In this document: one piece after another, positions 2,579 through 11,604 of the stretch
Layout of the letters: each line of letters begins with the position of its first letter
How positions within the stretch are numbered: position 1 is the stretch's first letter
Translations under genes and position numbers: made by a program
Notes under the pieces: model-generated
The model's database searches: none
What the model was told of the DNA's origin: nothing
The model's input: only the letters and a program-made list of their open reading frames with translations
Source: Chloroflexota bacterium
GTDB lineage: Bacteria; Chloroflexota; Limnocylindria; Limnocylindrales; CSP1-4
NCBI GenBank assembly: GCA_003141955.1
Contig: PLOC01000062.1
Coordinates: forward strand, 1 to 32,518
Direction: 5' to 3'
DNA: 32,518 bases

Positions 2579-3139
2579 TCAGCGCTGCTCGGCCGCCCGC
2601 TCCAGGGCCAGCTGCTGCATGGCCAGGATCGTCATCGCGTCGACGATCTCCCCGTCGGAGATCATGGCCATGACCTCGTCGAACGGGACCCACTGCAGCT
2701 GGAGTTGCTCGGTGCCCTCCGGCGAGGCCGGGCCCGCTTCCAGGCCTGTGGCGACGAACAGGATCGTCACCTCGTCCGTTACTGAGTTGGACAACTCCGC
2801 GCGACAGATCTCGCGCCACTCTCCGCCGATGTAGCCGGTCTCCTCCGCCAGCTCGCGCCGGGCCGCTGCCTCGGGGATCTCGTCGAAGTCGCCGCCGCCT
2901 TCTGGGATCTCCCACGAGTAGTGGTTCATGGTGTAGCGGAATTGCCCCACGAGCAGGACACGATCGCCCGCGTCGATTGGCACGACGCCGATGGCGAGGT
3001 GGCGGAAGTGGACGACGCCGTAGATGCCGGGCTTCCCGTCCGGCCTGACGACATCGTCGTGCAGGATTTCAATCCACGGATTCTCGTAGGCGACGCGCCG
3101 CGCGACGCGGTGCCAGGGGTTGCCTTCGGTCGAGCTCAC
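2579..3139 (-). CDS. Nudix hydrolase, ADP-ribose pyrophosphatase-like
   Basis: A 186-residue Nudix hydrolase, which would cleave a nucleoside diphosphate linked to another group, most likely ADP-ribose or a nucleotide sugar. The Nudix box G-x5-E-x7-RE-U-x-EE-x-G-U is complete: GGGDFDE, then RREL, then AEETGYI. The preceding FRYTMNHYSWEIPEGG is the usual lead-in of ADP-ribose pyrophosphatases, where WE(I/L)P contacts substrate. Substrate choice cannot be fixed from sequence. The open frame extends far upstream, but similarity begins at SSTEGNPWHRVARR. I chose the GTG at 3139, which has a TACGAT -10 box seven bases upstream (leaderless pattern) and no ribosome-binding site. Confidence 0.88.
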   Translation of the reverse strand: MSSTEGNPWHRVARRVAYENPWIEILHDDVVRPDGKPGIYGVVHFRHLAIGVVPIDAGDRVLLVGQFRYTMNHYSWEIPEGGGDFDEIPEAAARRELAEETGYIGGEWREICRAELSNSVTDEVTILFVATGLEAGPASPEGTEQLQLQWVPFDEVMAMISDGEIVDAMTILAMQQLALERAAEQR

Positions 3140-3146
3140 GCCGCCA

Positions 3147-3152
3147 ATCGTA
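3147..3152 (-). promoter_or_regulatory. -10 box of a leaderless promoter, Nudix gene
   Basis: On the minus strand TACGAT is followed by seven bases and then GTG. This places the expected transcription start at or beside the start codon. No convincing -35 was identified. Confidence 0.45.
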
Positions 3153-3302
3153 GCGAGGCGCGAGGCGCGAGGCGTGGGCGCCGGTCGAGGAACCGGCAGC
3201 GCGCCACCGGCGTCAGACGGATGAACCGTCCGCGAGGGGCGAGGCCTGGACGAGCGCAACGCCGCGCGGCCCAATGAGACCCGCCGAAGCCAGGAGAAGA
3301 CG

Positions 3303-4175
3303 ATGAACGACAAGATGGCCAATTCCAAGCACGAACCGAGCGAGCCAGTCGCCGCCGCAGACTCGAGCCGGCCGGGCCCGCTGACGCTGGGCCGCGTCGT
3401 CGCGGTGACCGCGGCCGCGAGCCTGCTCGTCGGTCTGATCGCCGGGCCGATCATCGCCAACCACTTCACCTCGGCGGCCGGCGACCCCGCCACCACTGGT
3501 ACGCCGACCATCGTGGCCGCGGCCACAGACACGACGAGCACGCCGGAACACACCATCACCGTTTCTGGATCGGGCGACGTCAGCGTGGCCCCGGACGTGG
3601 CCGACGTGGTGCTCGGCGTCTCAGCCACCGCGTCGACCGTCAAGGATGCCCGGGCCGCCGCGGCGACCTCCATGACGGCAGTCCTTGCCGCCGTGAAGAA
3701 GGACGGCGTAGCCGACAAGGACATCGTGACCGTCAATCTCAGCCTGAGCCCGAACTACGACTACAGCTCCGGCAAGTCCGTCCCGCCGCTGACCGGCTAC
3801 ACGTACAGCAACACGATCAAGGTCACCGTCCGCGACCTGACGAAGGTGGCCGCCGTCGTTGACGACTCGACCGCCGCCGGCGCCACCACCGTGCAGGGCA
3901 TCTCGTTCCGCCTCGACGACACGACGACGGCCGAGGCCCAGGCCCGCCAGCTCGCGATGGCCGACGCTCGGTCCAGGGCCGATGCGCTGGCCCAGGCGGC
4001 TGGCGTCTCCATCAAGGGTGTGGCCTCGATCACCGAGGTCACGAGCTCGCCGGTCACCTACTACCCGCAGTCCGCGCAGGGTCTCGTTGCCGCCGCTCCG
4101 TCGGTTTCGACGCCGATCCAGACCGGCACGACCGACATCACGGTTCAGGTGACGGTCAGCTACCTGATCGGCTGA
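3303..4175 (+). CDS. SIMPL-domain (DUF541) membrane-anchored protein
   Basis: A 290-residue protein with a short cytoplasmic head, one hydrophobic span at about residues 27-50 (VVAVTAAASLLVGLIAG), and an extracytoplasmic SIMPL domain. The domain starts at TITVSGSGDVSVAPDVADV and includes LSPNYDYSSG, LTGYTYSNTIKV and the final TDITVQVTVSYLI strand, all typical of DUF541. SIMPL proteins (for example BP26 of Brucella and E. coli YggE) form oligomeric envelope structures of unclear biochemical role. The ATG is preceded by AGGAGAAGACG, a good ribosome-binding site. It is divergent from the Nudix gene, and no functional link to its neighbours is evident. Confidence 0.9.
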   Translation: MNDKMANSKHEPSEPVAAADSSRPGPLTLGRVVAVTAAASLLVGLIAGPIIANHFTSAAGDPATTGTPTIVAAATDTTSTPEHTITVSGSGDVSVAPDVADVVLGVSATASTVKDARAAAATSMTAVLAAVKKDGVADKDIVTVNLSLSPNYDYSSGKSVPPLTGYTYSNTIKVTVRDLTKVAAVVDDSTAAGATTVQGISFRLDDTTTAEAQARQLAMADARSRADALAQAAGVSIKGVASITEVTSSPVTYYPQSAQGLVAAAPSVSTPIQTGTTDITVQVTVSYLIG

Positions 4176-10196: not shown

Positions 10197-10272
10197 GGGG
10201 GAGTAGCTCAACGGTCAGAGCACGGCTCTTATACAGCCTCGGTTGGAGGTTCGAATCCTCCCTCCCCTACCA
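10197..10272 (+). tRNA. tRNA-Ile, anticodon UAU
   Basis: A complete cloverleaf folds from the sequence. The acceptor GGGGGAG (10197-10203) pairs with CTCCCCT (10262-10268), with a G-U at the first pair. The D stem is GCTC/GAGC. The anticodon stem is CGGCT/AGCCT with one C-U mismatch at its outer pair. The loop CTTATAC gives anticodon TAT at 10230-10232. There is a 5-base variable loop, a T arm GGAGG-TTCGAAT-CCTCC, discriminator A and an encoded CCA. UAU reads AUA (Ile). Most bacteria instead read AUA with a CAU-anticodon tRNA modified by TilS, so this gene is uncommon. Position 38 is C rather than the usual A, so charging identity needs testing. An IS481-type element begins one base after the CCA plus G. 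Confidence 0.85.
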
Positions 10273-10273
10273 G
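10258..10273 (+). repeat. Left copy of the 16-bp target duplication
   Basis: CTCCCTCCCCTACCAG covers the 3' strand of the T stem, the acceptor strand, CCA and one base. It is repeated exactly at 11589-11604, directly outside the element. Confidence 0.9.
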
Positions 10274-10300
10274 TGTCTTGAGTCGCGACATAGGTGACAC
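10274..10300 (+). repeat. Left terminal inverted repeat of the IS
   Basis: Begins TGTCTTGAGT and ends GACATAGGTGACAC. An imperfect second copy of its core, GAGTCGCGACAT, recurs 23 bases further in at 10303-10314. This suggests tandem transposase-binding sites. Confidence 0.8.
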
Positions 10301-10328
10301 ATGAGTCGCGACATGTGCCACACCTGTT

Positions 10329-11531
10329 TTAGCTGGTTTCCTGGGACCCCGGCCATCGGCCGGGGTTTCTTCGTTGGTTGCGCCAGTAGCCCTTGTCGGG
10401 TTCGATCCGGTGGTTCGAGAGGATCTCGCCCGTGTCGAGGGCGACGATCGTCACCTCTTGCTCATCGACGATGGCGAGGACCCGACGCCGGGCGTGGGCG
10501 ACGCCGGCGTTGAGGTGGTAGAGGCGACCGCCGCGCCGGATGGTCATGGCGCCCTTGCCGTCGGTGAGGTCGTAGCGAAGACGGAAGTGGCCGCGGCCAG
10601 AGGCTTCCGATGGCCGCGCCTTCGCTGTCGCCCGGTATGCCTCACCCGGAGTCGCCCGGCCAACCGCACGGTGGGGCCGTTGCTCGTTGTAGGCGAGGTG
10701 GAAGGCGTCGAGTTGCGCCTGGAGCTCCACGAGGCTATTCACCGCTGGACGCTGCCCGAGCCAGCGCTTGAGGGTTTGATGGAACCGCTCGATCTTGCCC
10801 TGGGTCTGCGGGTGACCTGGCGCGCCGTTCTTCTGGCGGATGCCCAAGTAGGCAAGCAGATACTCGAAGCTGTTGCGGCCCCCGGTGAAGCGCGACGTGT
10901 AGACCGCCCCGTTGTCGGTGAGCGTGGCGGCGGGCCAGCCGTGGGCGTCGCCTGCCGCGGTGAACGTGGCCACCACGTCGTCGCCGCTGACGCGCGCGAA
11001 GGCCGTGCAGGCCAGCAGGTAGCGAGAGTGGTCATCGAGCCAGTTGATGATCTCGACCTCGCTGCCGTCGGCGAGGCGCCAGTGGGTGAAGTCGGACTGC
11101 CAGACCTCGTTTGGCGCCGCGGCCTCGAAACGGATCCAGGAGCTGCGCGGGCGTTTGTGTGGCTCGGGTGTGACGAGTCCTGCGCCATGGAGGACGCGCC
11201 GGATGGTCGAGGTCGACGGGACCGGGAGGCCCTCACGCTCGAGGTGCCAGGCGATGGTTGCCGGGCCGGCGTCGAGGCCCCGGGCGACGAGGTCCGTTCG
11301 GAGCTCGATGATCCGGTCGCGCACGGCGACCGACGTCCGCTGCGGGCTCGCATGCGGCCGCCGGGATCGGGGTTCGACGCCTTCGAGCCCACCTTCCCGA
11401 TACCGGGCAAGGAGCCGGTGCAGGTGGCCCCGACTGATGCCGCATTGGGCTGCCGCGGCGGTGACGGACAGCTGCGCTGAGACGACCTTGAGGACGGCGA
11501 CCTGGTGCTTCGACATGCTGCGGACTGTCAC
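10329..11531 (-). CDS. IS481-family transposase
   Basis: A 400-residue DDE transposase that cuts and joins the IS ends. Two N-terminal helix-turn-helix regions (about residues 1-120, e.g. VTAAAAQCGISRGHLHRLLARY) precede an rve integrase core. The catalytic residues are D in WQSDFTHW, D in TLTDNGAVYTS and E in GKIERFHQTLKRWL. The NEQRPHRAVGRATPGEAY segment after the core is typical of IS481. No frameshift or stop interrupts it and the catalytic residues are present, so it should be functional. MSKHQVAV, five codons in, is an alternative start. The gene fills almost the whole element. Confidence 0.95.
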   Translation of the reverse strand: MTVRSMSKHQVAVLKVVSAQLSVTAAAAQCGISRGHLHRLLARYREGGLEGVEPRSRRPHASPQRTSVAVRDRIIELRTDLVARGLDAGPATIAWHLEREGLPVPSTSTIRRVLHGAGLVTPEPHKRPRSSWIRFEAAAPNEVWQSDFTHWRLADGSEVEIINWLDDHSRYLLACTAFARVSGDDVVATFTAAGDAHGWPAATLTDNGAVYTSRFTGGRNSFEYLLAYLGIRQKNGAPGHPQTQGKIERFHQTLKRWLGQRPAVNSLVELQAQLDAFHLAYNEQRPHRAVGRATPGEAYRATAKARPSEASGRGHFRLRYDLTDGKGAMTIRRGGRLYHLNAGVAHARRRVLAIVDEQEVTIVALDTGEILSNHRIEPDKGYWRNQRRNPGRWPGSQETS

Positions 11532-11561
11532 GCATGTCCCGACTCACCAGTAACCGATCAA

Positions 11562-11588
11562 GTGTCTCCTATGTCCTGAACTCTGACA
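11562..11588 (-). repeat. Right terminal inverted repeat of the IS
   Basis: Read inward on the minus strand it begins TGTCAGAGTT and ends GACATAGGAGACAC. A subterminal GAGTCGGGACAT-like copy lies further in, near 11535-11547, mirroring the double site at the left end. Confidence 0.8.
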
Positions 11589-11604
11589 CTCCCTCCCCTA
11601 CCAG
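11589..11604 (+). repeat. Right copy of the 16-bp target duplication
   Basis: CTCCCTCCCCTACCAG, identical to 10258-10273. It is a tRNA 3'-end remnant made by the insertion, not part of a second tRNA gene. Confidence 0.9.

Follow-up and report, generated by a model that had tools for sequence, protein, structure and literature searches.

How does an insertion sequence (IS) come to lie against the 3′ end of a tRNA gene and yet leave that gene whole? The question is raised by a 32,518-nucleotide stretch of a Chloroflexota genome (assembly GCA_003141955.1, contig PLOC01000062.1; hereafter the window), in which a 1,315-bp element of the IS481 family follows a tRNA-Ile(TAT) gene. A first-pass annotation had described a 16-base repeat on either side of this element and an intact tRNA, and had proposed that if other copies also sat in tRNA 3′ ends the element would belong to an IS481 lineage that selects its target and does it no harm. 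That conditional claim holds across the relatives we collected, with about 90 junctions at 12 tRNA isotypes, while the exact register, the fixed polarity, a terminator at the tRNA-facing end and a second tRNA-targeting lineage were not foreseen. The transposase of these elements, which we call group A, very probably selects tRNA genes by direct recognition of T-arm DNA (RGGTTCRANTC|CY, the bar marking the cut) and inserts harmlessly, with repair of the tRNA.

The tRNA-Ile(TAT) locus

The features of the locus are as follows, with positions in the window.

10197–10272, + strand: tRNA-Ile(TAT) gene, intact, its 3′ end coming from the left duplication copy (ARAGORN)
10247–10259, + strand: T-arm target motif AGGTTCGAATCCT (RGGTTCRANTC|CY), cut after C10257, which is tRNA nucleotide (nt) 61 (sequence and target alignment)
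10258–10273, + strand: target-site duplication, left copy, 16 bp (exact repeat; single copy in congeners)
10274–11588, − strand (that of the transposase): IS481-family element, 1,315 bp, TGTC...GACA
10274–10316, + strand: left (tRNA-side) end, with terminal repeat TGTCTTGAGTCGCGACATAGGTGACAC and then a similar second repeat ATGAGTCGCGACATGTG (sequence)
10329–11531, − strand: transposase, 400 aa, with helix-turn-helix (HTH) domains, an RNase-H DDE core (D147, D206, E248) and a C-terminal beta domain (open reading frame, Pfam, NCBIfam, alignment, model)
10347–10373, + strand: terminator-like hairpin ccccggccatcggccgggg plus TTTCTTCG, facing tRNA-derived transcription (fold about −25 kcal/mol; class-wide enrichment)
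11525–11588, − strand: right end, with terminal repeat TGTCAGAGTTCAGGACATAGGAGACAC and internal repeat TGAGTCGGGACATGCGTGACAG, spaced unlike the left end (sequence)
11589–11604, + strand: target-site duplication, right copy, 16 bp, an orphan tRNA 3′ end (exact repeat)

The 16-mer CTCCCTCCCCTACCAG, which comprises tRNA nt 62-76 and one base downstream, is exact at both edges of the element (10258-10273 and 11589-11604) and has no third occurrence in the whole window; ARAGORN finds the tRNA whole. Both points had been recorded correctly at first sight. A tRNA-Ile(TAT) query was matched in 19 of the 21 congeneric genomes, and in the fetched stretches of all readable congeners but one (G054) the tRNA 3′ end CTCCCTCCCCTACCA (or CTTCCTCCCCTACCA) occurs singly and is followed by unrelated DNA. 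Because relatives without the element have this 3′ end only once, the repeat in the window is a target-site duplication, and these empty sites rule out a repeat older than the insertion. G054 carries an internally deleted copy of the element (about 0.7 kb) at tRNA-Ile(TAT), with a 16-bp repeat of its own. The duplication had been placed at the long end for IS481. Published lengths range from 2 to 15 bp, with 6 the most usual and some members close to 15 (PMC10045372); the 16 bp of the window lie just past this maximum, and the 15-16 bp of the clade lie at it or one base above.

The transposase is the sole gene of the element in the list of open reading frames. It scores 257.9 bits against the NCBIfam IS481 model (cut-off 224) and also passes the cut-off of the LZ_Tnp_IS481 model, while its score of 83.8 against the generic NCBIfam ISNCY_2 model falls below the cut-off of 250. 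The DDE triad is invariant in 22 aligned sequences, and the element has terminal inverted repeats of the IS481 type, TGT...ACA. Gene and domain matches in the window element are confined to transposase and HTH families, with no accessory target selector and no AAA+ regulator among them. A structure search returned a general kinship with TnsB, IstA, Mu and retroviral integrases, TnsB being among the top matches, which does not explain the choice of target. In the window protein, residues specific to the clade lie, for example, at positions 81-96, 150-160 and 317-339.

Register, polarity and target motif among relatives

No other copy of the element was found in the 2.8-Mb source genome, where the second match was a 35-bp chance match. 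Relatives were gathered by a GTDB genome scan with the transposase, from which the best 80 of 292 were taken, and further loci came from family DNA searches and from protein searches of 14 locus-bearing genomes and 296 actinobacterial genomes; distinct junctions were then collected with profiles of both element ends. The left ends, at the 3′ side of the transposase gene (tnp), lie 15, 16 or 17 bp after tRNA nt 61 in 37, 50 and 3 of 90 distinct junctions, and a stricter cut-off retains 89 junctions in this register. None of 84 right-end flanks is in the tRNA register. As only left ends, and never right ends, meet the tRNA, tnp is always antisense to the tRNA gene, and the polarity of insertion is fixed. 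The tRNAs targeted represent 12 isotypes (Arg, Ser, Ala, Leu, Pro, Ile, Tyr, Lys, Gly, Val, Thr and Asn), and the hosts are mostly Actinomycetota and Chloroflexota. Exact duplications were found in 34 of 59 two-ended loci (16 bp in 19, 15 bp in 14 and 17 bp in one) and correspond to tRNA nt 62-76 or 62-77, so that the copy beside the tRNA body completes the gene. The relatives are thus not spread at random with short duplications. In three loci (L003, L006, L021) the duplication recurs in the right flank, complete or in part, as possible scars of earlier insertions since lost.

Aligned at the cut, the 89 targets read R51 G52 G53 T T C R A N T C61 | C62 Y63. Nucleotides 53-61 belonged to the search pattern, and nt 51, 52, 62 and 63 lay outside it; the latter four are constrained in 89, 88, 89 and 89 of the 89 targets, respectively, versus 41, 43, 44 and 41 of 48 other tRNAs from the same loci, which makes the T-stem pairs 51:63 and 52:62 more constrained in targets than in other tRNAs. 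Counts of RGGTTCRANTCCY in seven genomes lie between 34 and 42 per genome, against 0-4 for its reversed control. The former figure is about the number of tRNA genes expected in a genome, and since the motif is nearly as frequent as tRNA genes, recognition of the motif DNA alone would yield the observed specificity.

The tRNA-facing end has a further characteristic. In 47 of 84 elements (about 56%) the first 180 bp contain, on the tRNA-sense strand, a GC-rich hairpin with a T-run behind it, the hairpin mostly starting 45-60 bp from the tRNA-side end. Dinucleotide shuffles give a rate of 4.6%, and the same search gives 5 of 84 elements when the other strand is read and 1 of 52 at the right end. 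The hairpin sequence varies among genera and its position is kept. The window hairpin (10347-10373) has a modest T-run and was rejected by a stricter scan.

Multiple copies within single genomes provide a view of mobility. Enteractinococcus coprophilus has four copies identical over 1,440 bp, three of which lie at tRNA-Leu(TAG), Leu(TAA) and Ser(GGA) and the fourth off target. Such identity between copies at separate tRNAs suggests that the element has transposed recently. In Agrococcus baldri a 416-bp non-autonomous derivative, from which most of tnp is deleted, occurs at tRNA-Ser(GGA), Ala(GGC) and Ala(CGC) (L034, at 2941-3356 in tRNA-sense orientation, L328 and L329); the copies are 99.5-100% identical and each has its own duplication. 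As this derivative dispersed without a complete tnp, the element ends and a transposase supplied in trans appear to be enough for insertion. Tandem arrays were also found, in which the regenerated tRNA end was targeted again.

A tree of 88 IS481-type transposases places the group A tRNA sites in one clade, with a support of 93 in the Shimodaira-Hasegawa-like approximate likelihood ratio test (SH-aLRT). Three clade members that initially bore another label are degraded; on re-inspection one of them, L212, was seen to lie at a T-arm. Among about 29 other IS481 elements of the phylum the group A arrangement occurs only in L129, itself a group A member, and most of the other IS481 elements in the sample are not directed at tRNAs.

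Proposed recognition of the T-arm and its alternatives

We propose that the transposase contacts the T-arm motif directly and joins the left end of the element to the tRNA side. Strand transfer would take place at nt 61|62 of one strand and, in the opposite strand, 15-16 bp beyond that point. Gap repair would then duplicate nt 62-76 or 62-77, the copy beside the tRNA body rebuilding the gene exactly and the second copy remaining as a harmless orphan past the element, and the rebuilt site would stay open to new insertions that generate tandem arrays. The polarity would probably be set by the unequal layout of the transposase-binding repeats at the two ends. The intrinsic terminator that many members carry close to the end facing the tRNA would, we infer, stop the tRNA transcript, taking over from the natural terminator that the insertion displaces, and would protect tnp against antisense transcription.

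Several points weigh against this account, which is drawn from sequence comparison. The background set of tRNAs used for the target motif is small (n=48), and a terminator was undetected in 37 of the 84 elements. About seven loci, apparently from metagenome-assembled genomes (L004, L013, L026, L027, L038, L042, L046), carry the 3′ end of one tRNA on the left and that of a different tRNA on the right, and may be assembly chimeras or the products of recombination between copies at different tRNAs. Inspection of the 36 left-type junctions in which the T-arm pattern found no match left eight that are relics or unclear and two where the element has clearly inserted elsewhere than in a tRNA 3′ end (L054 and L073), of which L073 (the same insertion as L185) is well supported and has no resemblance to a T-arm. 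The others are second copies in tandem arrays, with another copy's end as outer flank (12), lineages outside the clade or weak calls (12), and T-arms narrowly missed by the pattern (two, L026 and L039).

An indirect recognition of the tRNA locus, mediated by a protein of the host, by the transcript of the tRNA, by an R-loop or by a transcription complex comparable to the Pol III factors, would agree with the finding that nearly all insertions lie in whole tRNA genes, and has a precedent in the tRNA-targeting retroelements of eukaryotes (PMC5006619). We consider it unlikely, since two sites other than recognisable whole tRNA genes were used at the same register: the non-tRNA T-arm mimic GGGGTCAAGTC|CC of L054 (whose other contig end is L064), with a 16-bp duplication, and, in the plasmid locus L251, a tRNA 3′ fragment where no whole tRNA was detected. 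Plasmid records with a relative at E <= 1e-40 numbered 5 of 72,556, and phage records gave no match. The near tRNA specificity of the motif by itself and the use of an identical site across phyla also argue against an intermediary.

It is similarly doubtful that a DNA hairpin or cruciform formed by the T-arm stem-loop, and not the base sequence, is what is recognised. The T-arm is a hairpin, the L054 mimic can pair GGG with CCC, and related lineages (L291, L294, L296) insert in inverted repeats. However, all tRNAs have this hairpin, and yet the targets shun T-stems with pyrimidine-51:purine-63 (0 of 89, against 7 of 48 other tRNAs), which is not what pure structure predicts.

Two further explanations have a negligible probability. 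Random insertion followed by survival of only the harmless events would exploit the tolerance to be expected for tRNA-sparing insertions, but it is refuted by the single-base register and single polarity, for which survival alone is insufficient, and by the contrast with other IS481 elements, which are maintained away from tRNAs in these phyla; the off-target copies L054 and L073 are viable. The 16-bp repeats resemble att sites, and tRNA 3′ ends are classic attB sites, but an integrase island with an incidental IS is ruled out because only a DDE transposase and no integrase gene lies between the window repeats, which abut the IS ends exactly; no larger integrase island bounded by the same repeats was seen in relatives, near-identical elements occupy many tRNA types, and the 416-bp derivative behaves alike without a complete transposase gene. 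Direct recognition of the T-arm DNA by the transposase remains our preferred explanation.

Other IS481 lineages and known systems

A second lineage, group B, comprises about 19 loci adjoining tRNA 3′ ends (Arg, Met, Thr and Lys; L223, L191, L229, L256, L257, L259, L260, L262, L226 and L269-L279), with transposases mostly of about 400 aa and 36-39% identity to the window protein. In these the transposase gene reads in the same direction as the tRNA, and the duplication, of 15-16 bp, begins 5-6 nt further downstream. A terminator was found in one of nine tRNA-facing ends checked; it is a speculative idea that group B uses read-through from the tRNA for its expression, with which this near-lack of terminators would fit. 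The remote IS481 relative L125 lies at tRNA-Arg(TCT) in the group A register (nt 61|62), with a 15-bp duplication and group B polarity. Ordinary members of the family have 6-bp CCTAGG duplications (L112, L140), and others have duplications of 14-16 bp away from tRNAs, some within inverted repeats (L291, L294, L296). Together with L215, these three have duplications of 14-15 bp inside perfect or near-perfect inverted repeats, palindromes resembling terminators or repetitive extragenic palindromic (REP) sequences, which suggests a palindrome-targeting IS481 lineage. A further set of IS481-like transposases (L280-L284, L286, L287) measures about 590-630 aa, some 200 residues extra, and the duplications resolved for L280-L282 are 14-15 bp at non-tRNA sites.

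Group A shares with the rest of the IS481 family, both the Bordetella type with 6-bp duplications and members with about 15 bp such as the archaeal ISMac4 and ISA0963-1, its DDE transposase, TGT...ACA ends and single gene; it differs in the obligate tRNA T-arm target, the fixed register and polarity, the 15-16-bp duplication and the tRNA-facing terminator. The account of IS481 in PMC10045372 does not mention tRNA, and no description of a tRNA-targeting IS481 element was found in searches of open-access papers, which did not extend to ISfinder. The IS1202 family and its ISAjo2 group, at dif and pdif sites, are likewise target-specific, with fixed orientation and a fixed distance to a conserved site, and are proposed to act through bound XerC (PMC10132070), but their transposase family and target differ and their duplication is 5 bp; the window element, with a tRNA T-arm and 16 bp, does not match this arrangement. 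TnGBS, ISLre2 and ISKra4 (Mutator-like), which insert upstream of sigma-A promoters, are unrelated in transposase superfamily and target; the orientation of TnGBS-type elements has been attributed to end asymmetry (PMC3942029). Tn7-like elements and CRISPR-associated transposons (CASTs) at tRNA genes (PMC11406308) have a related DDE fold and share the TGT/ACA ends and the use of tRNA genes as safe sites, but require TniQ/TnsD or a guide RNA together with TnsC, whereas here one protein accepts many tRNAs. In eukaryotes, TRE, Skipper and DGLT-A of Dictyostelium and Ty3 of yeast (PMC5006619) share the harmless niche at tRNA genes, which has evolved repeatedly, but insert upstream or downstream at a distance, and not within the T-stem with repair.

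It is likely that group A represents a widespread and hitherto undescribed IS481 clade, which uses the T-arm DNA universal to tRNA genes as its attachment site at one base and in one polarity, rebuilds the tRNA by means of a 15-16-bp duplication and frequently brings a replacement terminator, alongside a second lineage of opposite polarity shifted by 5-6 nt. Both would be single-protein DDE transposases of bacteria with a built-in specificity for tRNA genes. Such elements explain the orphan 3′ ends of tRNA genes and the tandem arrays of IS that can mislead searches for integrase att sites. Most IS scatter and damage their hosts, so that a compact single-protein DDE transposase that enters essential genes harmlessly is unusual, and parallels the tRNA retroelements of eukaryotes. 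With a single protein, a 13-base target and fixed register and polarity, target recognition by a DDE transposase becomes directly testable, and a tool for insertion at safe sites could follow.
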